This document shows positions 4,772 through 33,255 of a stretch of 33,894 bases of DNA, piece by piece. The notes below the pieces were generated by a model. The model had not been told where the DNA came from and did not search any database. It saw only the letters and a list, made by a program, of their open reading frames with translations. Each line of letters opens with the position of its first letter. Position 1 is the stretch's first letter. This stretch comes from an uncultured Clostridia bacterium (GTDB lineage Bacteria; Bacillota; Clostridia; Christensenellales; Aristaeellaceae): the NCBI GenBank assembly GCA_946411525.1, contig CAMKEI010000023.1, positions 1 through 33,894 of the forward strand, written 5' to 3'. The position numbers were made by a program, and so were the translations under genes.

Positions 4772-6550
4772 ATGAGGAAACTGGCTGCGGCAGTAATGAT
4801 CTGCCTGGTGCTGATGGCGGGGATCGCTCTTGGTGAGGGATCCGGCTTGAGCATTGGCGCGCCCCGGGAGGAGATCCGTCCCGGGCGCCCGGTTGTCGTT
4901 TCCTTTACGGTTCCCGAAGACGGCACCTGCAGCATCGGCCTGCGCAACAGTTCCGGTAATGCTGTTCTGACCGTTGCCGAGGAGCGGGCCGTGAAGGCCG
5001 GATACAATTCCATGTACTGGAACGGGACCTGCGATGGAGTACCCGTGCCGGAAGGCGCCTGGATCATGACGATCTGGATGAACGGCGAGACCGCGGAAAC
5101 GGAAATCACGGTCGGCCGGATGATCCCCTGCCTGATCTCTGTCAGAACAGAAAGCGGTACGGTGGAGGAAGGCGATACGGTCCTGCTCAGCTTCCACGCG
5201 ACGGAGGGAGGCACCCTGCTGCTGCAGGAGGAAGGGGATATTGAACCGCTGTACTGGGAGAACGTGGCGGCCGGCCCGGGAGAGGCGGGTTTCCAGGCGG
5301 AGATGACGCCCGGTTTCCATGAACTGACCCTGACGCTGGCCGGGGAGGACGGTACGCTTTCCGAACCGGTCCGGATCACGCTGGAGGTCCTTGAAAAGGT
5401 GGATCCCAATATCCTTCCCACTCCGGAACCGCTGCCGGATTACCTCCGGGAAAAAGGAGAGAAGGGATTCACGCCGCTCCATACCAGTCCCCGCCGGGGA
5501 GAAGACCGGACCCTGAATTACTGGACGCTGCCCATGGACATCACGGATGAGGAAGCGATCTGGAAAGTACTGACCGCACCGATTACCGTGCTGGACAACG
5601 GGAAGAAGAACGCGGAGAAGATGCAGGTGATTATCCGGTCCGGGCCTTCGGAGGAAAGCGACGGGGTCGGCGTGGCAACCTGCATCAGCCAGGGTGTCCA
5701 TGTGCTGGAACGCGGCGAGGAGTGGTCCCTGATTGAATGCTACTCTTCCTCCTTCCATGACAGCGCGATCCTGAACTGGAACGCGCTGGTCCAGGGATAC
5801 GTCCCTACGGCTTTCCTGAAAGATGTGAAGCCAAACCAGGAGATGGGTCTGGTGGTGGACAAGCTGACCCAGCGTCTGTATGTTTTCCGAGACGGGAAGC
5901 TGTTCTCGACACTGCTGGTTTCCACGGGCGTCGCCAATGCAAAGCAGCCATACAACGAAACCCGGTCCGGCGAATTCCTGCTGACCAGTAAGGTGGGCGA
6001 ATTCGCCTCGGACAATCTGCGCTGCGCCATGGCGCTGCGGTTCAACGACGGAGACCTGCTTCACGAGGTACCCTACATAGCCAGCGAATACGGCAAGGAT
6101 TACAGCGTCAATGAACCGAAACTTGGGACGAAGGCCAGCCACGGCTGCATCCGGGTTCAGCGGCAGCCGTCCCCGGAGGGAGTCAGCCAGAAATGGCTGT
6201 GGAACTACTATAAGAAGAATACCCGGATCCTGATCTGGGAAGACTGGCAGGGAAGGCAAATCCCGGTACCCGGCAGCGATATGCCCCTGTATTGCGTAAA
6301 GAAACGGACCGGCAATTATCACACGACGGATCAGTGCGCTTCGATCCGGGGAAAACGGGTGGAGGAACTGACTTACGGACAGCTGGATGAGGACGCTTAC
6401 AAAAAGCTGAATCCCTGCCCGATCTGCGCCGCGCCGCAGAGGAAGGAAACGATTCTGGCCATCAACGAGACCTATGCCGAAGGCGGCGATCACGATCCGG
6501 TGATGACCGAAGCCCGGAAAAACTGTCCGCGGAAGCTGAAAGGGAAATAA
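4772..6550 (+). CDS. Secreted L,D-transpeptidase (YkuD family) with SH3-like and Ig-like domains
   Basis: A 592-residue exported protein predicted to form 3-3 peptidoglycan cross-links or anchor proteins to the wall. It begins with a signal peptide (about 1-21). About 200 residues of beta-rich sequence follow, resembling two FlgD/Ig-like domains. An SH3-like segment comes next (about 265-350). The YkuD domain (about 360-490) ends in the signature SHGCIRV, with His457 and nucleophile Cys459. The C-terminus adds a small element with His517, Cys522, Cys549 and Cys552 (C-P-I-C), which may bind a metal. ATG 4772 is preceded by GGAGG at 4763-4767. It sits between a class A PBP and a CvpA protein, consistent with an envelope role. 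Substrate is inferred from family only. Confidence 0.9.
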   Translation: MRKLAAAVMICLVLMAGIALGEGSGLSIGAPREEIRPGRPVVVSFTVPEDGTCSIGLRNSSGNAVLTVAEERAVKAGYNSMYWNGTCDGVPVPEGAWIMTIWMNGETAETEITVGRMIPCLISVRTESGTVEEGDTVLLSFHATEGGTLLLQEEGDIEPLYWENVAAGPGEAGFQAEMTPGFHELTLTLAGEDGTLSEPVRITLEVLEKVDPNILPTPEPLPDYLREKGEKGFTPLHTSPRRGEDRTLNYWTLPMDITDEEAIWKVLTAPITVLDNGKKNAEKMQVIIRSGPSEESDGVGVATCISQGVHVLERGEEWSLIECYSSSFHDSAILNWNALVQGYVPTAFLKDVKPNQEMGLVVDKLTQRLYVFRDGKLFSTLLVSTGVANAKQPYNETRSGEFLLTSKVGEFASDNLRCAMALRFNDGDLLHEVPYIASEYGKDYSVNEPKLGTKASHGCIRVQRQPSPEGVSQKWLWNYYKKNTRILIWEDWQGRQIPVPGSDMPLYCVKKRTGNYHTTDQCASIRGKRVEELTYGQLDEDAYKKLNPCPICAAPQRKETILAINETYAEGGDHDPVMTEARKNCPRKLKGK

Positions 6551-6575
6551 ACGGAGCGTCCCGAACAAAACAAAA

Positions 6576-6601
6576 GATCTTTCTGAATGAAGTGAAAGAT
6601 C
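6576..6601 (+). other. Hairpin between the L,D-transpeptidase and cvpA genes
   Basis: GATCTTTC (6576-6583) and GAAAGATC (6594-6601) form an 8-bp stem with a 10-nt loop, ending just before the AGAGGA ribosome site of the next gene. There is no T-run, so it is unlikely to terminate. It may be an mRNA processing or stability element. Confidence 0.4.
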
Positions 6602-6620
6602 CTAAGAGGAAAGTGATTCA

Positions 6621-7325
6621 ATGAACGCAGTAGACATCGTGATCCTGGCGATCCTGGGACTGAGCGTCCTCGTCGGACTGTACCGGGGGTTTATTTCTTC
6701 GGTTGCGTCCATGGGCGGCTGCCTGCTGTCGCTGGGTCTCAGTTTCTGGCTCAGCCCGAAGCTCACGGCGGCAATCCAGAATAACCCGGATATTCTGAAA
6801 ACGCTTGCATCCTATACCGACGCAGCCACAAAACTGGGCGACCAGCAGCTGGCCGGCAGCAGCGTGACCGCGCTGACAGAGGGCGGTATTGCCGAGATCC
6901 TGAACAAGGTAGCCCTGCCGGCGCCTCTGAGCACGCTGCTGCAGAACAACCTGCAGAACAAGGTCTTCGGGACCGCGGCGGATGTGGGCACCTACGTATC
7001 ACAGACGATTGTCGGCGCCATCCTGAACGTAATCTGCTTCATCGTATGTTTCCTCGCGCTGATGCTGGTCATCCACTTCGTCATCAATTTCCTGAAAGTG
7101 GTCTTCAAGTTCCCTGTTCTTAAACAGCTGAACTCCATCGCGGGCGGCGCTTTCGGGCTGCTCCGCGGCGCGCTGCTGTGCTTTGTGGCTTTCGCGCTGC
7201 TGCCCCTGATCCAGACCCTGCTGCCGGTGCAGGATATCAACAACCTGGTGGCACAAAGCGCACTGGCACCCCTGTTCAACAGCGGGAACCTCATCCTGGC
7301 GATCATGAAGGGACGATTGTTTTAG
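6621..7325 (+). CDS. CvpA family membrane protein
   Basis: 234 residues with four hydrophobic stretches: about 5-20 (VDIVILAILGLSVLVGLYRG), 30-47, 130-160 and 180-205. The N-terminal NAVDIVILAILGLSVLVGLYRG-type opening and the C-terminal F-x-x-x-RGALL segment match the CvpA/colicin V production family. These are small integral membrane proteins often linked to envelope homeostasis in Bacillota; their biochemical role is unsettled. The start at ATG 6621 follows AGAGGA (6605-6610). It lies 70 nt after the L,D-transpeptidase and is closed by a strong terminator, so the two genes may be cotranscribed. Confidence 0.8.
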   Translation: MNAVDIVILAILGLSVLVGLYRGFISSVASMGGCLLSLGLSFWLSPKLTAAIQNNPDILKTLASYTDAATKLGDQQLAGSSVTALTEGGIAEILNKVALPAPLSTLLQNNLQNKVFGTAADVGTYVSQTIVGAILNVICFIVCFLALMLVIHFVINFLKVVFKFPVLKQLNSIAGGAFGLLRGALLCFVAFALLPLIQTLLPVQDINNLVAQSALAPLFNSGNLILAIMKGRLF

Positions 7326-12630: not shown

Positions 12631-13836
12631 TTACTGAGCCATCGCAGCTTCGCAATTGGCAACGAAGGTGTTCAGCACTTCCAGCAGAGCGGCATCATCG
12701 GCATCGTCCAGCTTGTCAGCCAGGATGTCATCGCCGAGGCCTTCCGCCGCTGTCCAGTAGCCGTTGGGATACTGTCCCTGCGGGATGGTGTAGGCCAGCT
12801 GTGCGCCCAGGGCGGCCAGCGCGACGTCTTCCTGAACAGCGGGATCCTGCTGGGCAGCCAGGTTGGAGGGACCCCAGAAGACAGCCTTATAACGGGCAAG
12901 CTGTACATCACCGCTGGTCAGATAAGCAGCCAGCGCGTCGCAGGCGGCGAGCTTCGCTTCGTCCGTCTGGGGCTTGATACCCAGCATCTTGAATCCGCCG
13001 AAACCGCTCAGCTGAACGCCTTTGTAAGCGGGCAGCTTGGTGGCGGCGTAGTTGTCACCGAACAGATCCTTGGCGGCGCCGGCATCCCACACGCCATCCA
13101 CGATCGCGGCCACGTTGGTGGCGGTGGACAGGGAGGAACCATTCTGGAAGGCAGGGCTCTTAGCCGCTTCGATCATGGCCTTCAGGGCGGTAACGCCCTT
13201 ATCGGAATTGTAGTTCGTGTTCAGCTTGACATAGTTGCCATCGCTGTCGGTGTCATAGGTCAGTTCGCAACCATAGGCGAAGAAGAAGGCGACCTGATAC
13301 CAACCGGAGTTGATCTGGAAGTAGAAGCTCTTGCCGGCGGCTTCGCAGTCGGCCAGGACTTTGTCCAGATCGGTCGGATCGGTGACAACGCTCTTGTCGT
13401 AGTAGAGGAAGTAGCCGTTGTCGCTGGTCATCGGGTAGGCGTACATCACATCGCCCATCTTGACGGCGCCGACGGAACCGGCATCGTTCTCAGCTTCAAC
13501 AACCTTGGCATTTTCGGGCTCGACTTCCTCGATGGCACCGGCCTTCACCAGGCGGCCCAGCTGGTCCTGGGCGAAGCCGTAGATGTCGGCAGCGGATTCA
13601 ACGTCGGTGATGACCTTGTTGGCGGCATCGCCTTCGCCGACGGGCTCGACTTTGACGGTCATGTCAGCATACTCGGGATTGGCGACCTTGAAGGCTTCAA
13701 CCTGTTCATTGGTGAAGTCGACCACATTTTCGGCCACCCAGACTTTGATCTCTCCGCTGAAGCCTTCCGCAGAAGCGAAAGACGCCAGGGACAGAACCAT
13801 AGCCACGGTCAGTACGATAGCAAGAATCTTTTTCAT
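12631..13836 (-). CDS. Extracellular sugar-binding protein (MalE/MdxE/GanS type)
   Basis: A 401-residue solute-binding component of the CUT1 importer. It captures oligosaccharides outside the membrane and delivers them to the permease pair. A signal peptide (about 1-23, ending SFASA) is followed by the family opening GEIKVWV. Aromatic residues such as those in SGWYQVAFFF and GYWTAAEGLGDD are typical of the maltodextrin/galactooligosaccharide group. No lipobox Cys follows the signal peptide, so membrane anchoring of the mature protein is not explained by lipidation. The ATG at 13836 follows a GAAAGGAAG site. It is the first gene after its own promoter and a LacI-type operator, downstream of the GH53 gene. 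Sugar specificity is inferred only. Confidence 0.9.
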   Translation of the reverse strand: MKKILAIVLTVAMVLSLASFASAEGFSGEIKVWVAENVVDFTNEQVEAFKVANPEYADMTVKVEPVGEGDAANKVITDVESAADIYGFAQDQLGRLVKAGAIEEVEPENAKVVEAENDAGSVGAVKMGDVMYAYPMTSDNGYFLYYDKSVVTDPTDLDKVLADCEAAGKSFYFQINSGWYQVAFFFAYGCELTYDTDSDGNYVKLNTNYNSDKGVTALKAMIEAAKSPAFQNGSSLSTATNVAAIVDGVWDAGAAKDLFGDNYAATKLPAYKGVQLSGFGGFKMLGIKPQTDEAKLAACDALAAYLTSGDVQLARYKAVFWGPSNLAAQQDPAVQEDVALAALGAQLAYTIPQGQYPNGYWTAAEGLGDDILADKLDDADDAALLEVLNTFVANCEAAMAQ

Positions 13837-23580: not shown

Positions 23581-24660
23581 ATGGACATGACTGAAAGAAA
23601 AAGAAAAGAGCGGCAACTGATTGCCACAACGGTTCTTGCATTGGTAATCTTTGCTGCCGGACTGCTTTTTCTGCCGATTCTGACTGAAAAAATCCTGCTT
23701 GGCGCTGTGCTGGTACTGATCGCCGGTGCACTGTTTTTTACCAACAACACCGGGCGGTATGTCTGCAAGCGTATTCTGCTGGCATTCCTGACTATTTTTA
23801 TCATTGCGGCCATTACTTTCTTTACTATGAATGCAATCCCCGGCGGACCGTTCTCCAAGGAGAAAGCTCCTTCTGCCGCTGTTCAGGCTGTGCTGGAAGA
23901 ACGTTTCCATCTGAACGAGCCGGTTGGTAAACAGTTCCTGCTGTACCTGGAAGGATTAATGCAGGGGAACTTTGGTATTTCCACCAAGACCGGACGGGAG
24001 ATTTCCACAACCATTTTTGATTCTTTCTCCATATCCGCGAAACTGGGCGGCATGGCTGCACTGCTGGCAATCGTCCTGGGTGTGCTGCTGGGCAGCATTG
24101 CCGCTCTTAACCGTGCAAAGGCTGCGGACCGGGTGATCATTTTTTTCACCACCCTGTTTGTGGCTGTGCCAAGCTTTATTATGGCAACGCTTCTGCTGCT
24201 GGTATTCTGTCTGCAATTGAACTGGTTCCCGATTTTCAGTACCGAGAATCAGTCATACGTACTTCCGGTAATCGCACTGATGCTTTCCCCGATGAGCTAT
24301 ATCACCCGGCTGACAAAAACATCCATGCTGGATGTGCTGGGTCAGGATTATATCCGTACTGCCCGGGCAAAAGGGGTAAAACAGTGGCTGGTGATCTTCA
24401 AGCATGCCCTGCGTAATGCGCTGATTCCTGTAATTACTTATGTAGGACCGATGACAGCCTACATCCTGACAGGTTCCATGGTGGTCGAATCCGTGTTTAC
24501 TACGGGCGGGCTGGGTACAAAATTTGTCCAGGGCATCACTAACCGGGATTATCCGATGATTATGGGCACGACAATTTTCCTGGCCATGCTGATGGTAACC
24601 GCGACCTTGCTGAGCGATCTGGTATACAAACTGGTGGATCCCCGGATCGACTTTGACTGA
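23581..24660 (+). CDS. oppB: Oligopeptide ABC transporter permease OppB with extra N-terminal helices
   Basis: 359 residues, about 50 longer than typical OppB. Residues 1 to about 58 add two hydrophobic segments (about 13-31 and 36-53). The canonical permease then begins (RYVCKRILLAFLTIFIIAAITF), with the usual MNAIPGGPF opening of the first periplasmic loop. The coupling motif is YIRTARAKGVKQWLVIFKHA. Together with OppC it forms the channel for short peptides. ATG 23581 follows AAGGAG; an ATG two codons later is equally possible. It is the first gene of the oppBCDF-oppA operon. Confidence 0.92.
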   Translation: MDMTERKRKERQLIATTVLALVIFAAGLLFLPILTEKILLGAVLVLIAGALFFTNNTGRYVCKRILLAFLTIFIIAAITFFTMNAIPGGPFSKEKAPSAAVQAVLEERFHLNEPVGKQFLLYLEGLMQGNFGISTKTGREISTTIFDSFSISAKLGGMAALLAIVLGVLLGSIAALNRAKAADRVIIFFTTLFVAVPSFIMATLLLLVFCLQLNWFPIFSTENQSYVLPVIALMLSPMSYITRLTKTSMLDVLGQDYIRTARAKGVKQWLVIFKHALRNALIPVITYVGPMTAYILTGSMVVESVFTTGGLGTKFVQGITNRDYPMIMGTTIFLAMLMVTATLLSDLVYKLVDPRIDFD

Positions 24661-24677: not shown

Positions 24678-25757
24678 ATGAGTGATTATAATCCGAATAT
24701 TCCCCCGAAAAAGAGGCCTTTCAGCCTGCAATTGGATCCGGCGAAGTTTGAACCGGCCACCGATGAGGAAAAAGCACAGCAGGAGGTTATGCGGGAGAGC
24801 ACCACGTTCTTCCGGGACGGTATGCGTAAGCTGTTCCATAACCCGCTGGCTGTCGGTTCCATGATTGTGCTCCTGGTCATTCTTGTGACCATAGTCATTG
24901 CTCCGCTGATTGTTCCTTATTCCTACAGCGGAATGATTACAGTAGACGGAAAACGTGACAAGAGCGCCAAAAACCTGCCGCCTTTTACCTACTCCAAACT
25001 GGAACAGCAGGCGATTGACAACGGTGAAACGGTGTTTCCCCATATTTTCGGGACAGATGAGCTTTGCCGCGACTATTTCATCCGGGTGATTTACGGTGCC
25101 AGGGTATCACTGTCAGTTGGTTTTTTTGCCTCGCTGATTGTGCTGATTATCGGTCTGCTTTACGGTTCCATCGCGGGTTATGCCGGTGGGCGGACGGACC
25201 TGATAATGATGCGGATTGTGGACATCATCTATTCATTGCCGGATACGCTGATGGTGATCCTGCTTTCCGTTGTTCTGGATCAATTGCTGGGCCAAAGCCT
25301 GCAGAATACCGCCTTGGCTAGTATCGGTCCCAATATGCTGTCTATGTTCGCTGTCTTCGGACTGCTGTACTGGGTGGGTATGGCCCGCCTGGTCCGGGGA
25401 CAGATCCTGAGCATCAAGAACAACGAATATGTGCTGGCAGCCCAGGCGATGGGCGCCAAGCCCGGGCGGATTATCCGGAGGCACATTCTGCCCAACTGCA
25501 TGAGCGTTATCATTATTTCCACTGCACTGCAGATCCCGTCGGCCATCTTTACCGAAAGTTTTCTGAGCTTTATCGGCCTGGGCGTACAGGCTCCGATGCC
25601 TTCACTGGGTTCCCTGGCCAATTCGGCGCGCCAGGCCCTGCAGGCCTATCCTTACAAAATGATTTTTCCGGCGGTGGGAATCTGCCTGATTGTTTTGTCA
25701 TTCAATTTGCTGGGCGACGGTCTTCGTGACGCCTTCGATCCTAAACTGAGGAAGTGA
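24678..25757 (+). CDS. oppC: Oligopeptide ABC transporter permease OppC
   Basis: 359 residues: a cytoplasmic N-terminal tail of about 55 residues, a first membrane segment, a large external loop containing FGTDELCRDYF (the usual GTDxxGRD motif, with Cys in place of Gly), then the five-helix core. The coupling motif is YVLAAQAMGAKPGRIIRRHILP. The ending GDGLRDAFDPKLR is characteristic of DppC/OppC. It starts 17 nt after oppB with a GAGGAGG site and pairs with OppB in the membrane. Confidence 0.93.
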   Translation: MSDYNPNIPPKKRPFSLQLDPAKFEPATDEEKAQQEVMRESTTFFRDGMRKLFHNPLAVGSMIVLLVILVTIVIAPLIVPYSYSGMITVDGKRDKSAKNLPPFTYSKLEQQAIDNGETVFPHIFGTDELCRDYFIRVIYGARVSLSVGFFASLIVLIIGLLYGSIAGYAGGRTDLIMMRIVDIIYSLPDTLMVILLSVVLDQLLGQSLQNTALASIGPNMLSMFAVFGLLYWVGMARLVRGQILSIKNNEYVLAAQAMGAKPGRIIRRHILPNCMSVIIISTALQIPSAIFTESFLSFIGLGVQAPMPSLGSLANSARQALQAYPYKMIFPAVGICLIVLSFNLLGDGLRDAFDPKLRK

Positions 25758-25761
25758 TCCC

Positions 25762-26769
25762 ATGAGTGAAATGCCATTGCTTCAGGTGAAGAACCTGCAC
25801 ACCTCCTTTTTTACGGACGCCGGCGAAGTGAAAGCTGTAAACGGTATCTCGTACAATCTGGATGCCGGAAAAGTGCTGGGGATTGTCGGGGAGAGCGGCA
25901 GCGGCAAGAGCGTGTCTGCCTATTCCGTCCTGCGCATTCTGACAGATACCGGCCGTGTGAAAGAAGGGGAAGTCCTTTTCAAGGGCGAGAACATTCTGAA
26001 GTATTCTGAGCAGCAGATGCAGAAGTTCCGCGGAAGCAGGATTTCCATTATCTTTCAGGATCCCATGACTTGCCTGAATCCCACGTTTTCTATCGGCAGC
26101 CAGCTGCGGGAAGCTATCCGAATCCATACGGACCGCAATAAGGAGGAAATCCAGGCAAGAGCCCTGGAGATGCTGCAGCTGGTCGGGGTCAATGAACCGG
26201 AAAAAAGGCTGAAGCAGTATCCTCATGAATTATCGGGCGGTATGCGGCAGCGGGTTATGATTGCCATGGCGCTTGCCTGTGAACCTGACATTCTGATTGC
26301 GGATGAACCGACGACAGCACTGGATGTGACCATCCAGGCGCAGATTCTGGAGCTGATGCAGGACCTGCAGAGGAAACTGGGCATGGCCATTATCATGATC
26401 ACGCATGACTTAGGCGTGATTGCCGATATGTGCGACGAGATTATTGTGATGTACGGCGGCAAGGTCTGCGAACGGGGAACCGCGGATGAGATATTCTATA
26501 ATCCGCGTCATGAATACACAAAAGGTCTGATCCGTTCCATTCCCCGGATTTCGGAAAAGCACGAGAAACTGATTCCGATCTCCGGCTCTCCGGTGGACCT
26601 GCTGAACCTGCCCAAGGGCTGCGCTTTTGCCGCACGTTGTGACCATGCGATGAAGATCTGTCTGGAACAGCCTCCGGAGGAAGTCAGGGTTAATGACTTC
26701 CATATTGCCGCCTGCTGGAACAACGTAAAACAGATGATGGACGAGGCAAAGGATGGTGAGGAAACATGA
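25762..26769 (+). CDS. oppD: Oligopeptide ABC transporter ATPase OppD
   Basis: 335 residues. Walker A GESGSGKS near residue 40, signature LSGGMRQRV, Walker [14 protein letters not shown] and the H-loop ITHDLG are all present. The C-terminal peptide-transporter extension contains [15 protein letters not shown], with regularly spaced Cys residues of the type that bind an Fe-S cluster in some OppD/DppD proteins. It starts 4 nt after oppC, so its ribosome site lies inside the oppC end. It overlaps oppF by ATGA (26766-26769), indicating coupled synthesis of the two ATPases. Confidence 0.94.
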
Positions 26770-27731
26770 GCGGGCAAAAGCATCTGTTGGATGTGCGCGG
26801 CCTCAAGGAGTATTTTCCTGTCAAATCCGGCATGCTGAACAAGATGCTGCTGAAAGCAGTGGATGATGTTTCCTTCACCATAGATGAAGGAGAGACCCTG
26901 GGACTGGTGGGAGAGTCCGGCTGCGGAAAGACGACTGTGGGCAGAACTCTGCTCTATCTGTACAAGCCGACAGCCGGTGAGGTATACTTTGACGGACAGC
27001 TGGTTACAGAAAAGAACATCGGCGACTTCCGCAAGGACATGCAGATTGTGTTCCAGGATCCCTATTCCTCCCTGAATCCCAGGATGACCGTTGCGGATAT
27101 CATCGGTGAACCGCTGGACATTCATAAACTATACAGTTCCAAAAAGGAGAGGGCAGACCGGATTGCCGAACTGCTGACGCTTGTGGGACTGAACAGCGAG
27201 CATGCCAACCGTTATGCACACGAGTTCTCAGGCGGCCAGCGCCAGCGGATCGGAATTGCACGGGCACTGGCGGTCAATCCTCGCTTTATCGTGTGCGATG
27301 AGCCGGTTTCCGCGCTTGATGTATCCATTCAGGCTCAGATTATCAATACCTTTGAAGACCTGCAGCAGAAGCTTGGAATCGCCTATCTGTTTATTGCCCA
27401 TGATCTGCTGGTGGTTCAGCATATGAGCAGGCGAATTGCTGTTATGTATCTCGGGCGGATTGTCGAGATCGGACCGGCGGGTGATATCATTGGCTCCCCG
27501 GTGCATCCCTATACTGAATCGCTGATTTCAGCCATTCCCATGCCTGACCCGGAGACGGCAAGGCATAAACACCGCATTATCCTGGAGGGTGACGTGCCGT
27601 CTCCGCTCCGTATGCCCAAAGGCTGCCCTTTCCGTACCCGGTGCCGCTATGCGACAAAGGAATGCGAGGAAAGCCGCCCCGAACTGAAAGAAATCGCTCC
27701 TGACCGGTTTGTGGCCTGCCACAACCGGTAA
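26766..27731 (+). CDS. oppF: Oligopeptide ABC transporter ATPase OppF
   Basis: 321 residues, partner ATPase of OppD. Walker A is GESGCGKT near residue 45. The signature reads FSGGQRQR, with Phe for the usual Leu, as commonly seen in OppF. Walker B is [13 protein letters not shown], and the H-loop is IAHDLLVV. The Cys-containing C-terminal segment [14 protein letters not shown] parallels that of OppD. Start ATG overlaps the oppD stop. A UUCG hairpin follows before oppA. Confidence 0.94.
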
Positions 27732-27796: not shown

Positions 27797-29452
27797 ATGA
27801 AGAAACTGTTAGCTCTTCTGTTGGCTGCCATGATGGTATTCGGCTGCGTTTCCGCGTTTGCCGATGAAGGCAGCGAACCCGACTGGACCGGCTATGATGC
27901 CCGCATTGCGGAGATCAAAGCGACCACAGACTTTGCCGCCCGTGAAAAGCTGCTGCACGAAGCGGAAGACGAACTGATGGCTACCGGTGCTATCGTTCCG
28001 ATCTATTACTACAACGACGTGTACATGGCGAAGGAAGGCTTGACCGGCTACTATTCCAACGCGTATGCCACCAAGTTCTTCATGTATGCCGACTTTGGCG
28101 AAAACACCACCCTGCGCCTCCAGCTGGCTTCGGAGCCGGATAAGCTGGATCCCGCTCTGAACAGTTCCGTGGACGGCGCCTGCCTGGCTGCCAACAGCTT
28201 CGGCGGTCTGTATACCTATGATGCCAACGGCGAGCTGGCTCCCAACTTTGCGACCGGCTATGAAGTCAGTGACGACGGCCTGGTTTACACCTTCACCATC
28301 CGCGACGGACTGAAGTGGTCCGATGGTACCGAACTGAACGCCAAGGACTTCGAGTATTCCTGGAAGCGCGCTGCTGCTCCCGAAACCGCTGCCGACTACA
28401 GCTACATGTTCGACGGCATCAAGGGCTATCCGGATGACCTGCAGGCGATTGCTTCCGAAGACGGAAAGACCTTTACCGTAACCCTGAACGCGCCCTGCGC
28501 CTACATGCTGGACCTGGCTGCATTCCCCACCTTCTTCCCAGTGCAGAAGGCATGTGTTGAAGCTTCCGCCACAGCCGAAAATCCCGGTGCCTGGGCGCTG
28601 GAAGCCGGCTTTGTCTCCAGTGGTGCTTTCGTGCTGGAAAGCTGGGAGCATAACCAGTCCATGGTTTATGTGAAGAACCCCAACTACTGGGATGCCGAGA
28701 ATGTTAAGCTGGAGCGCCTGGAGTTCATGCTGAGCGATGACGATACTGCTATCTTTGCCGCATATCAGAACGGCGACCTGGACTTCACCGATTCTGTACC
28801 TACCGATCAGATCGCTTCTCTGCTGGACAACCCCGAGTTCCATATTGTGGATGAACTGGGCACCTATTATGTGATCTTCAACGTGAAGTCCGACCTGTTT
28901 GCCGGCAAGACCGTAGAACAGGCTGCTGCGATGCGGAAGGCCATGAGCCTGCTGATCGATCGTCAGTATATCATTGATACTGTCGGGCAGACCGGACAGA
29001 AGATTGCCACCTCCTTCATTCCTGCCGGTATGCTGAACGGCAACGGCGGCATCTTCAAGGATGCTTCCGGCTGGAACTATCCGAACGGTGCTGACGGATA
29101 CTATGCTGAAGAGCCCAACGTGGAAGAAGCGATCGAGCTGCTGAAGAGCGCTGGTTTCGAATTTGACGCGAATAACATGCTGTCCGCTTCAACCCCCATC
29201 GCCTTCGAGTATCTGACCAACAACACCTCCGGTCATATCGCGATTGCCGAGTGCCTGCAGCAGGACTTCGCGCAGATTGGCATCAATATGACTATCAAGT
29301 CCATTGACTGGGCTGTGTTCCTCAACGAGCGCAAGGAAGGCAACTTCGGTATCGCCCGTAACGGTTGGATCGCGGACTTCAATGACCCGATCAACATGCT
29401 GGAGATGTGGACTACTGTTTCCGGCAACAACGACGCTCAGTTTGGCCGCTGA
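27797..29452 (+). CDS. oppA: Peptide-binding protein OppA, apparently circularly permuted
   Basis: A 551-residue family 5 solute-binding protein, the extracellular receptor of the adjoining OppBCDF importer. A signal peptide (about 1-22, FGCVSAFA; Cys17 is a weak lipobox candidate) is followed at about 25-100 by a segment that in this family is normally the C-terminus: YDARIAEIKATTD, AAREKLLHEAEDELM, IVPIYYYNDVYMAK, then GYYSN and KFFMYADF. The canonical beginning, TLRLQLASEPDKLDPALN, comes only at about 105. The protein then runs in normal order to WIADFNDPINMLEMW and stops at NNDAQFGR, where the missing module would normally follow. All parts are in one frame, with an intact start, a strong AAGGAGG ribosome site and a terminator after the stop. 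Substrate: peptides, by family and operon. Confidence 0.9.
   Translation: MKKLLALLLAAMMVFGCVSAFADEGSEPDWTGYDARIAEIKATTDFAAREKLLHEAEDELMATGAIVPIYYYNDVYMAKEGLTGYYSNAYATKFFMYADFGENTTLRLQLASEPDKLDPALNSSVDGACLAANSFGGLYTYDANGELAPNFATGYEVSDDGLVYTFTIRDGLKWSDGTELNAKDFEYSWKRAAAPETAADYSYMFDGIKGYPDDLQAIASEDGKTFTVTLNAPCAYMLDLAAFPTFFPVQKACVEASATAENPGAWALEAGFVSSGAFVLESWEHNQSMVYVKNPNYWDAENVKLERLEFMLSDDDTAIFAAYQNGDLDFTDSVPTDQIASLLDNPEFHIVDELGTYYVIFNVKSDLFAGKTVEQAAAMRKAMSLLIDRQYIIDTVGQTGQKIATSFIPAGMLNGNGGIFKDASGWNYPNGADGYYAEEPNVEEAIELLKSAGFEFDANNMLSASTPIAFEYLTNNTSGHIAIAECLQQDFAQIGINMTIKSIDWAVFLNERKEGNFGIARNGWIADFNDPINMLEMWTTVSGNNDAQFGR
27869..28096 (+). other. Displaced C-terminal module within oppA
   Basis: This stretch encodes OppA residues 25-100. 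From Tyr33 it aligns without gaps over 46 residues to residues 711-756 near the C-terminus of the second binding protein in this window, with 11 identities by my count, including D, R, E, M, P and Y anchors. The comparison shows that it is a terminal module placed at the opposite end. Confidence 0.8.
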
Positions 29453-30885: not shown

Positions 30886-33255
30886 ATGAAGAAACTCTTG
30901 GCTCTGCTGCTGACTGTGTGCATGCTCGCAAGCGTGACCGCCGTCTTCGCAGAAGAAGCTGCTGCCGCGGACATCCCGCTGGTTGTGGCGGAAAACACCC
31001 TGTCCCAGAAATTCAGCCCCTATTTTGCGGACACTGCCTATGACCAGGATGTGGTCAGCATGACGCAGATTGGCATGATGACCACCGACCGCGTCGGCGG
31101 AATCATCTACAACGGTATCGAAGGCGAGACCATTCCGTACAACGGAACGGACTACACCTACTACGGCACCGGTGATCTGACCGTCAACTATGACGAAGCC
31201 AGCGACGTCACCACCTACGGATACAAAATGCGTGAAGATCTGAAGTTCTCCGACGGAGAGCCCGTGACGATCGACGACGTCATCTTCACTTATTATGTTT
31301 ATCTGGATCCGGCCTACAACGGCTCCACCACGCTGAAGAGCTACGACATCCTGGGCCTGCAGGCTTACCTGACCCAGATCCCGGAAGCGAACGTGGCTGA
31401 GGTTTCCGCGATTGCCGAAGCCGTGAAGGCAGCTTTCGCCGCCAACGGCGCGGGATACACAGTGGCTGAAGGCGATGCCTTCACCCAGGAAGTGTATGAC
31501 AACTATGCCGCTGCGATCACCGAAGCCTGGAAGGCCGACCTGCAGGGCATCGTGGATTATGTGTACGCCAACTACGGCGAAGCTTATGCCGAGCAGATTA
31601 CCGGCAAGACCTTTGAGGAAGTCGGCGAGTCCGACGCCCTGAAGATCTTCCTGGCTGGCAACCTGTGGGGCTTTGCCATCGAGAATCCGGAATGCACGAT
31701 GGACGACCTGTACGCCTCCGCCTCCACCAAGTACGGCGGAAGCTATGATGCATACCTGGCTGCCGGTGAATCCGCCACAGGATCTTCCGCTGACAGCATC
31801 AATTCCAGCCTGATGAGTGCTGCGGCCGCCGCGGCCGGCGTTGACACCAGCGCGGGCGTTCCCAACATCTCCGGTATCACCCGTGTGGACGATTACACTG
31901 TGGAAGTTAAGGTTAAGGGCTTCAGCGCTCCCGCCGTGTACTCCATCCTGGGCCTGAACATTACCCCCATGCACTACTATGGCGATCCCGCCCAGTATGA
32001 CTACGCGAACAATCAGTTTGGCCATCCCTACGGCGACCTGAGCATCGCGCAGAGCAAGACCGATCTGCCCATGGGCGCCGGCCCCTACAAGTTCGTCAAG
32101 TATGACAACCGTGTTGTATACTACGAAGCGAACGAGAACTACTTCCTCGGCGCTCCGAAGACCAAGACCATGCAGTTCAAGGAAACCAACTCCGCTGAAG
32201 TGGCTTCCGCTGTTCAGACCGGCACTGCCGACGGCGGCGAAATGACCGGTAACAAGTCCAACTTCGAAATGCTGCGCTCCTTCAACGACAACGGCGAAGT
32301 GACCGGCAACGTCGTAACCACCTACAGCGTGGCAAACCTGGGCTACGGCTACATCGGCATGAACGCCGACACTATGAACGTTGCGGGCGAACCCGGCAGC
32401 GAAGCGTCCAAAAACCTGCGCAAAGGTCTGGCCACCATCCTGGCCGTGTACCGCGATACCGCGTTCGACAGCTACTACGGCGACGCCGCGGCTGTCATCA
32501 ACTACCCGATTTCCTCCACCAGCTGGGCTGCTCCGCAGGCCACCGACGAAGGCTATCGCGTAGCGTTCTCCGTGGACGTGGACGGCAATCCCATCTACAC
32601 TGCTGAGATGGGCGCTGAAGAAAAGTACGAAGCTGCCAAGCAGGCTGCGATCGGCTTCTTCAAGGCCGCCGGCTACACCTTCGATGAAGCGGAAGGCAAG
32701 TTCACCGCCGCTCCCGAAGGCGCTTCCATGAGCTATGAAGCGATCATCCCCGGCGACGGCACCGGCGATCACCCGTCCTTCGCGATCCTGACCGACGCCC
32801 GTGAAGCCCTGGGCTCCATCGGCATCGAGCTGAAGATCAACGACCCGGCGGATTCCAACGTGCTGTGGGATGCCCTGGACGCCGGCACCCAGAATATCTG
32901 GTGCGCTGCCTGGGGTTCCACCATCGATCCTGACATGTATCAGGTCTATCATTCCTCCAACATCGTGGGTAAGGGCGGCAGCGACAGCAACCACTACCAC
33001 ATCCAGAGCGAGGAACTGGACAAGCTGATCCTGGATGCCCGTCAGAGTGCCGATCAGGCTTACCGCAAGGAAGTCTACAAGGCTGCTCTGAACGAGATCA
33101 TGGACTGGGCGGTTGAAATCCCCGCCTATCAGCGCCAGAACATCGTCATCGCCAGCACCGAGCGCGTGAACATCGACACCATCACGCCCGACGTCACCAC
33201 CTATTGGGGATGGCTGGCTGAAGTTCAGCTGCTGGAAATGAACGCTACCAAGTAA
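30886..33255 (+). CDS. Large family 5 peptide-binding protein with helical insertion
   Basis: A 789-residue extracellular solute-binding protein, much longer than the usual 500-600. A signal peptide (about 1-22) is followed by the canonical order: YGYKMREDLKFSDGEPVTIDDVIFTY (about 111-136), then an Ala-rich, mostly helical stretch at about 158-326 that I take as an insertion, then GITRVDDYTVEV, MGAGPYKFVKYDN, and a normal C-terminus (708-789) including WAVEIPAYQRQNIVIAS. The insertion has repeated Tyr/Ala/Glu helices and no motif I recognise. A TTAAGGAGG ribosome site precedes ATG 30886. It is followed by a stable hairpin and then an OppB/DppB permease, so it is probably the receptor of a second peptide (or nickel/oligosaccharide) importer that continues past the window. 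Confidence 0.88.
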   Translation: MKKLLALLLTVCMLASVTAVFAEEAAAADIPLVVAENTLSQKFSPYFADTAYDQDVVSMTQIGMMTTDRVGGIIYNGIEGETIPYNGTDYTYYGTGDLTVNYDEASDVTTYGYKMREDLKFSDGEPVTIDDVIFTYYVYLDPAYNGSTTLKSYDILGLQAYLTQIPEANVAEVSAIAEAVKAAFAANGAGYTVAEGDAFTQEVYDNYAAAITEAWKADLQGIVDYVYANYGEAYAEQITGKTFEEVGESDALKIFLAGNLWGFAIENPECTMDDLYASASTKYGGSYDAYLAAGESATGSSADSINSSLMSAAAAAAGVDTSAGVPNISGITRVDDYTVEVKVKGFSAPAVYSILGLNITPMHYYGDPAQYDYANNQFGHPYGDLSIAQSKTDLPMGAGPYKFVKYDNRVVYYEANENYFLGAPKTKTMQFKETNSAEVASAVQTGTADGGEMTGNKSNFEMLRSFNDNGEVTGNVVTTYSVANLGYGYIGMNADTMNVAGEPGSEASKNLRKGLATILAVYRDTAFDSYYGDAAAVINYPISSTSWAAPQATDEGYRVAFSVDVDGNPIYTAEMGAEEKYEAAKQAAIGFFKAAGYTFDEAEGKFTAAPEGASMSYEAIIPGDGTGDHPSFAILTDAREALGSIGIELKINDPADSNVLWDALDAGTQNIWCAAWGSTIDPDMYQVYHSSNIVGKGGSDSNHYHIQSEELDKLILDARQSADQAYRKEVYKAALNEIMDWAVEIPAYQRQNIVIASTERVNIDTITPDVTTYWGWLAEVQLLEMNATK

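Follow-up and report, generated by a model that had tools for sequence, protein, structure and literature searches.

A probable circular permutation in an OppA-type binding protein of Clostridia, with further permutations in its family

The window analysed here is a stretch of 33,894 nucleotides from an uncultured Clostridia bacterium (family Aristaeellaceae; contig CAMKEI010000023.1 of assembly GCA_946411525.1), and the gene in question is an oppA-like open reading frame (ORF) at 27797..29452 of its forward strand, which codes for a family 5 binding protein of 551 residues. Very probably, its product is a genuine and working circular permutant of the OppA fold (substrate-binding protein family 5, cluster C), with peptide binding and delivery as its presumed role. 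A preliminary description of this DNA had already proposed a circular permutation. Its coordinates, frame and length for the ORF agree with the ORF list and the translation, and the proposal itself is supported, no refuting result having been found, but its picture was too small, in the sense that the protein belongs to a widespread family and represents one of several separate permutations.

Domain order of the protein

The protein belongs to family 5 by its match to PF00496 (SBP_bac_5), in which residues 146-545 cover positions 1-367 of the 368 of the profile (E 3.1e-87) with 293.5 bits, against a curated cut-off of 32.4. This profile is confined to the central part of such proteins. A Sec signal peptide (residues 1-22, 27797..27862, its AFA/D cleavage judged by inspection) is followed by a relocated C-terminal module (residues 26-100, 27872..28096), which resembles the C-ends of OppA/DppE and of canonical proteins from the same genus, and this in turn by the remainder of a family 5 binding protein, its N-terminal and middle segments (residues 102-551, 28100..29449), all on the forward strand. 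Between the two lies a ring-closing junction (residues 97-104, 28085..28108), where, in alignments A2 and A3, the ancestral C-end runs onto the ancestral mature N-end with about one extra residue. The chain then stops at a new C-terminus, SGNNDAQFGR plus the stop codon (29420..29452), at the point where the canonical relatives L013-L027 go on with their C-terminal module, just as the preliminary description had it when it noted that the closing segment expected after NNDAQFGR was missing there.

Aligned separately, the two parts fall where that description had placed them, the module on the C-ends of OppA/DppE chains and residues 102-551 on the remainder. Residues 24-103 alone have no Pfam match at E 1; in phmmer searches they match the C-ends of solved DppE/OppA chains (best four E 2.6e-5 to 0.0025), the best being DppE 8ay0 at 452-506 (E 2.6e-5), with E. 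coli OppA 3tcf matched at 446-500 (E 2e-4). Residues 102-551, for their part, match similar solved chains from near the N-terminus to about residue 450, e.g., 8are at 18-450. The C-end matches to 8ay0, 3tcf and the canonical L013-L017 bear out the claim that the usual closing segment sits right behind the signal peptide. These five same-genus proteins (from genomes G016, G017, G040, G010 and G026, respectively) share with the window protein 41-44% core identity, a similar SGN(N/D)D stretch and the same module (48-52% identity between residues 33-98 and their C-ends), and differ from it in that the module stands at the C-terminus, after some 30 further residues. Compared with proteins of the OppA/DppE type in general (PF00496, cluster C; B. 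subtilis OppA 8are and E. coli OppA 3tcf), the last ~75 residues are found at the front and the ends are joined almost directly.

The register of the two parts can be illustrated with a canonical-order profile of 549 positions that combines 11 canonical relatives with 12 rotated family members, the window protein included. In it, positions 469-548 are taken up by residues 21-100 (103 bits) and positions 25-471 by residues 102-551 (740 bits), scores that are inflated because the profile derives in part from rotated members including the window protein, and that illustrate nothing beyond the register. Across the junction, profile position 548 is followed by position 25, with a single residue in between. 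The linear order of family 5 (N-segment, middle, C-segment) is not kept, the C-segment coming first, and these alignments support the protein being a circularly permuted family 5 binding protein. The preliminary description had also adduced 11 identities over 46 ungapped residues with the second binding protein of the window; the correct offset (33/34 against 711/712) does give this number, yet so does one that has nothing to do with it (39 against 195), so they carry no weight alone, and the weight of the case rests on the solved chains and the relatives.

That second family 5 protein (30886-33255, 789 residues) has the canonical order; its profile match breaks off at residue 136 and restarts at 396, so that its N-terminal part must be followed by a sizeable insertion or by sequence that has diverged.

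Conservation among relatives

Within the genus, the full permuted protein is present in 5 of 45 genomes (that of the window included) at 88-100% identity, and in two more it is cut by a contig end; fifteen other genomes of the genus carry relatives (L013-L027) that are all in canonical order, with 35-44% core identity. At the level of the bacterial family, 26 of 150 genomes have a single match that spans junction profile A2 from end to end (251-294 bits); besides these, G110 has both halves of it on two separate contigs. A scan of named genomes yielded 471 relatives, of which the best 80 were analysed, some of them from the same assemblies as the 45-genome set. In all 80 of these loci the segment precedes the core, at a core identity of 58-96%, so the order that the preliminary description expected to recur in other genomes does so. 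Irregular cases are L108, split over two frames, L083, with a shortened front, and L041 and L043, which reach a contig end. By their titles, the sources comprise rumen and gut Clostridia, Lachnospiraceae, Oscillospiraceae, metagenome-assembled genomes (MAGs) of Chloroflexi/Anaerolineaceae, and a strain genome of Proteiniclasticum aestuarii, whose locus (NZ_JAFNJU010000008) has the permuted order as well.

Both parts of the permuted protein are under similar purifying selection: among seven close orthologues, the ratio of nonsynonymous to synonymous substitution rates (dN/dS) has a median of 0.123 in residues 26-100, from 19 usable pairs out of 21, and of 0.115 in residues 102-551, from all 21.

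These data bear on two readings in which there would be no true permutation. According to the first, a tandem pair of canonical genes was collapsed during assembly or binning into one chimeric gene; the window's source is a MAG of 2.45 Mb split into 113 contigs, C23 being the one in question, and tandem binding-protein genes do exist in relatives (L060, L076, L077). Nonetheless, the order is identical in the 80 named loci including the strain genome, dN/dS is low in both parts, the sequences form one clade that diverges gradually, and other permutations (see below) occur in the one-contig genomes G377, G824 and G1114 and in complete plasmids. A misassembly of 27797-29452 is very unlikely, and an artefact of this kind is scarcely credible. 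According to the second, the front module is an added domain, a C-terminal duplicate, on an otherwise truncated and degrading binding protein. The canonical tail is indeed absent from the protein, and partial duplicates are expected as a step of permutation by duplication, according to PMC3320104. On the other hand, the members with the C-end in view, tandem fusions apart, lack the tail and have the front module, front module and core together span the canonical profile once, and selection acts similarly on both parts, all of which leaves this second reading highly improbable. Misassembly and simple truncation were rejected on the recurrence in same-genus genomes and named loci and on the low dN/dS.

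Predicted structure

The AlphaFold2 model of the protein is confident (predicted local distance difference test, pLDDT, 92.5; predicted template modelling score, pTM, 0.88), residues 26-100 included, whose blocks have a pLDDT of 87-96. The predicted fold is OppA-like. The titles of the 50 matches listed each by Foldseek and VIA-align are those of oligopeptide-, dipeptide-, nickel-, opine- and similar binding proteins of cluster C, and the absence of other folds, such as the Type I/cluster B sugar-binding one, from such a list excludes nothing. Both programs match in chain order. With domain borders as we assume them to be, the N-terminus of canonical OppA lies in domain I and the new start, at about OppA residue 441, in domain III; by the same presumed borders, and unlike in the OppA/DppE type, the new termini of the permuted protein would be expected in domain III.

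Operon context and export

The gene stands behind the components of an importer, which we presume from resemblance to be oppB/dppB, oppC/dppC, oppD and oppF. On the forward strand, ORFs for an oppB/dppB-type permease (23581..24660), an oppC/dppC-type permease (24678..25757) and an oppD-type ATPase (25762..26769), all three with homologues ahead of the permuted gene in related loci, are followed by that of an oppF-type ATPase (26766..27731), 65 bases before the binding-protein gene. In 79 of the 80 named loci an oppF homologue (>60% identity) precedes the gene on its own strand by no more than 2 kb, fragments cut by contig ends included; L108 begins at a contig end. All four genes are found at most 7 kb upstream in 70 of the 80. 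The operon with oppBCDF/dppBCDF that goes with family 5 is present in the window and in most of the named loci. Since oppF and oppD also adjoin eight canonical relatives on the same strand (L125, L126, L128-L131, L133 and L134), the permuted gene seems to occupy the operon position of the ordinary binding protein.

The N-termini of the family were located by a simple rule, with no signal-peptide program, in 75 of 79 members, some of them visibly wrongly (L047, L062, L094). A lipobox pattern, which misses cases (L075, L086) and may over-call, is found in 28 of the 75, and by inspection the N-termini of other members are Sec-like, as befits exported proteins. L081 and L085 have an N-terminal membrane helix and an apparent coiled-coil stalk, with no lipobox. 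In the window's own clade, a possible lipobox Cys is not conserved, being replaced by other residues in L038, L041 and L068, and (A)LAD is kept; judging from these residues, Sec cleavage (ALA/D) is the more likely mode there. Read by eye, apparently plain Sec signals with no conserved lipobox are also shared by the binding proteins of the window at 27797-27865 and 12631-13836 and by same-genus relatives, which is unusual for presumably monoderm cells.

Such a signal would be compatible with a protein that is permuted yet works outside transport, as a secreted peptide sensor or decoy that may be released and is no partner of OppBCDF. This is, however, hard to reconcile with the strict linkage to oppBCDF in operon order, with the many members that are lipoprotein-like by the simple pattern (the said 28 of 75) or carry a membrane helix (L081, L085), and with the presence of oppF and oppD beside the eight canonical relatives, and we consider it improbable.

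For a functional permutant that serves the importer, the ancestral C-end would have been fused straight onto the ancestral mature N-end, with a new break just ahead of the last ~75 residues, with the signal peptide on the new N-terminus and a lipoprotein signal in many relatives. Peptides would most likely still be held between the lobes and passed to the OppBCDF importer, whose genes come just before. As the new opening is where the chain now begins, the tether to the membrane (in the window's clade, the free N-terminus) would leave from a different lobe than in canonical OppA. Two points weigh against this reading: nearly all sequences of the clade, that of the window among them, come from metagenome assemblies, and the lack of a conserved lipobox in the window's clade leaves the protein no evident means of staying close to the membrane if the cell is, as presumed, monoderm.

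Permutations at other cut sites

A profile of the junction only (A2, A3) finds joined ends regardless of where the chain was cut. Full-span matches to A2 occur in at least 11 of 398 genomes of a phylum sample, and matches to A3, which was built with five of these, in at least 15 of 201 Chloroflexota genomes (that of L077 among them) and at least 10 of 391 genomes of the class, the window genome being among those of the phylum and the class. When placed in canonical register, 9 of 10 other places of the phylum sample, 14 of 14 in Chloroflexota and 9 of 9 in the class are permuted. The phylum place that is not, L137 (G560:C1, ~904660-905145), has an in-frame TGA inside the junction match, possibly a broken gene or a sequencing error.

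The matches break in approximately five groups of profile positions: 112-148, 281-292, between 325-376 and 379-411, 431/436, and ~471, the window's own. To the first belong L144 (134/136) and L173-L181 (between 112/113 and 133-186), to the second L169 and L170 (between 250 and 296). L168 breaks at 431/436, and three permuted proteins come from one-contig genomes: L165 (G1114, 283/291), L162 (G824, between 347 and 383) and L136 (G377, between 345 and 387). L144, at 4861-6663 of a Subdoligranulum variabile plasmid record (OY725879.1), is permuted at another cut site and lies directly behind oppBCDF; its N-terminus is lipobox-like, and the place has no annotation in that record. In the Chloroflexota proteins L173-L181, cut after profile position 112-113, the junction is long and permease homologues adjoin. 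Complete plasmids with a permuted family 5 protein, whose first part matches weakly, are those of the alphaproteobacterium Salipiger sp. (L187, 2099-3838) and of the haloarchaeon Halalkalicoccus jeotgali (L189, 2126-3775), both annotated merely as ABC transporter substrate-binding protein; of the other plasmid candidates, three have the canonical order and one is unclassified.

Origins

In a tree of 69 proteins in canonical register (200 bootstrap trees), the window family forms a single clade (25 rows, 100/100), L144 has a canonical protein as its sister (100/100), and L124 falls together with five canonical ones (100/100, base unresolved). On the tree, the order switches eight times, six of them forced by well-supported branches, and none of the 200 bootstrap trees allows a single change; the exact number of events is uncertain because several distant rows sit on long branches. 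Judged from these trees, the window's clade has one origin and separate permutations have occurred elsewhere in family 5. The differing cut sites by themselves call for several events, unless a permutant was re-permuted.

The route may have been one of tandem duplication, fusion and trimming, as the preliminary description proposed. According to PMC3320104, permutation by duplication requires in-frame tandem copies. Two tandem fusions from Chloroflexi/Anaerolineaceae MAGs (L076, 7673-11593; L077, 9458-13444) do hold two permuted copies in one frame of ~1300 residues, 92% (L076) and 85% (L077) identical, with an A/E/V-rich linker of ~80-100 residues; the stretch from the first core to the second module is in canonical order. 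They were considered as ancestral intermediates and are read instead as later duplications. As both copies are already permuted, they indicate that a tandem step is tolerated and are no evidence of the route. No intermediate in which a single copy bears the module twice, in front and behind, was found among the ORFs examined, nor was a front segment accompanied by the usual C-terminal module, the case that the preliminary description had held to speak against it; the module occurs twice only in these two fusions.

Tentatively, and short of an even chance, the OppA fold might be conceived as a ring that has been re-opened repeatedly, giving several separate permutations in some five cut-site groups, in Bacillota, Chloroflexota, Pseudomonadota and haloarchaea, in the cases seen with the ancestral ends joined and an export or tether signal on the new front, and favoured because the tether shifts to another lobe of the Venus flytrap.

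Known systems and significance

Natural permutation of a binding protein of this kind of importer has a precedent: PMC4990184 describes Tp0684/TpMglB-2 of Treponema pallidum ('Cluster Bc') as a natural circular permutation of a glucose-binding protein of cluster B. Both cases are natural permutations conserved in a clade or species group, and the authors of that work raise a link to tethering. They differ in that TpMglB-2 has the sugar-binding Type I/cluster B fold and is cut elsewhere, strands that in EcMglB are close to the N-terminus being close to the C-terminus in it, with a fourth hinge crossing, whereas the window family has the predicted cluster C peptide-binding fold, with a segment shifted to the front and more than one cut site among its relatives. 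PMC10601554 mentions permuted constructs of ribose-binding protein. A literature search that took in passages of PMC4990184, PMC8276074, PMC10601554 and PMC3320104 found no natural permutation of family 5, in line with the preliminary description, which knew of none described for the Opp type; subscription papers lay mostly outside its scope, and it is no proof of absence. In the PDB, 72 distinct sequences matched the junction profile, and in the best 60 of them the best stretch lay within one half of the profile, none spanning the junction. NCBIfam has no model of the permuted order: three proteins matched 11, 12 and 11 of its families at E 0.001, with all listed scores below the curated cut-offs. 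Both the family and the phenomenon have been described before; within the reach of the search, their combination to such an extent has not.

Family 5 proteins are frequent among the binding proteins of bacteria from gut and rumen. In the annotated plasmid records the permuted ones are simply called substrate-binding proteins, and a Pfam match confined to the middle part conceals the change of order. Several separate permutations in one large family of nutrient transport would offer a natural experiment that relates the fold to the order of the chain and to its tethering at the membrane. The family offers naturally tested permutation sites for biosensor design, and it allows the direct question of whether a shifted anchor alters the docking to the importer.
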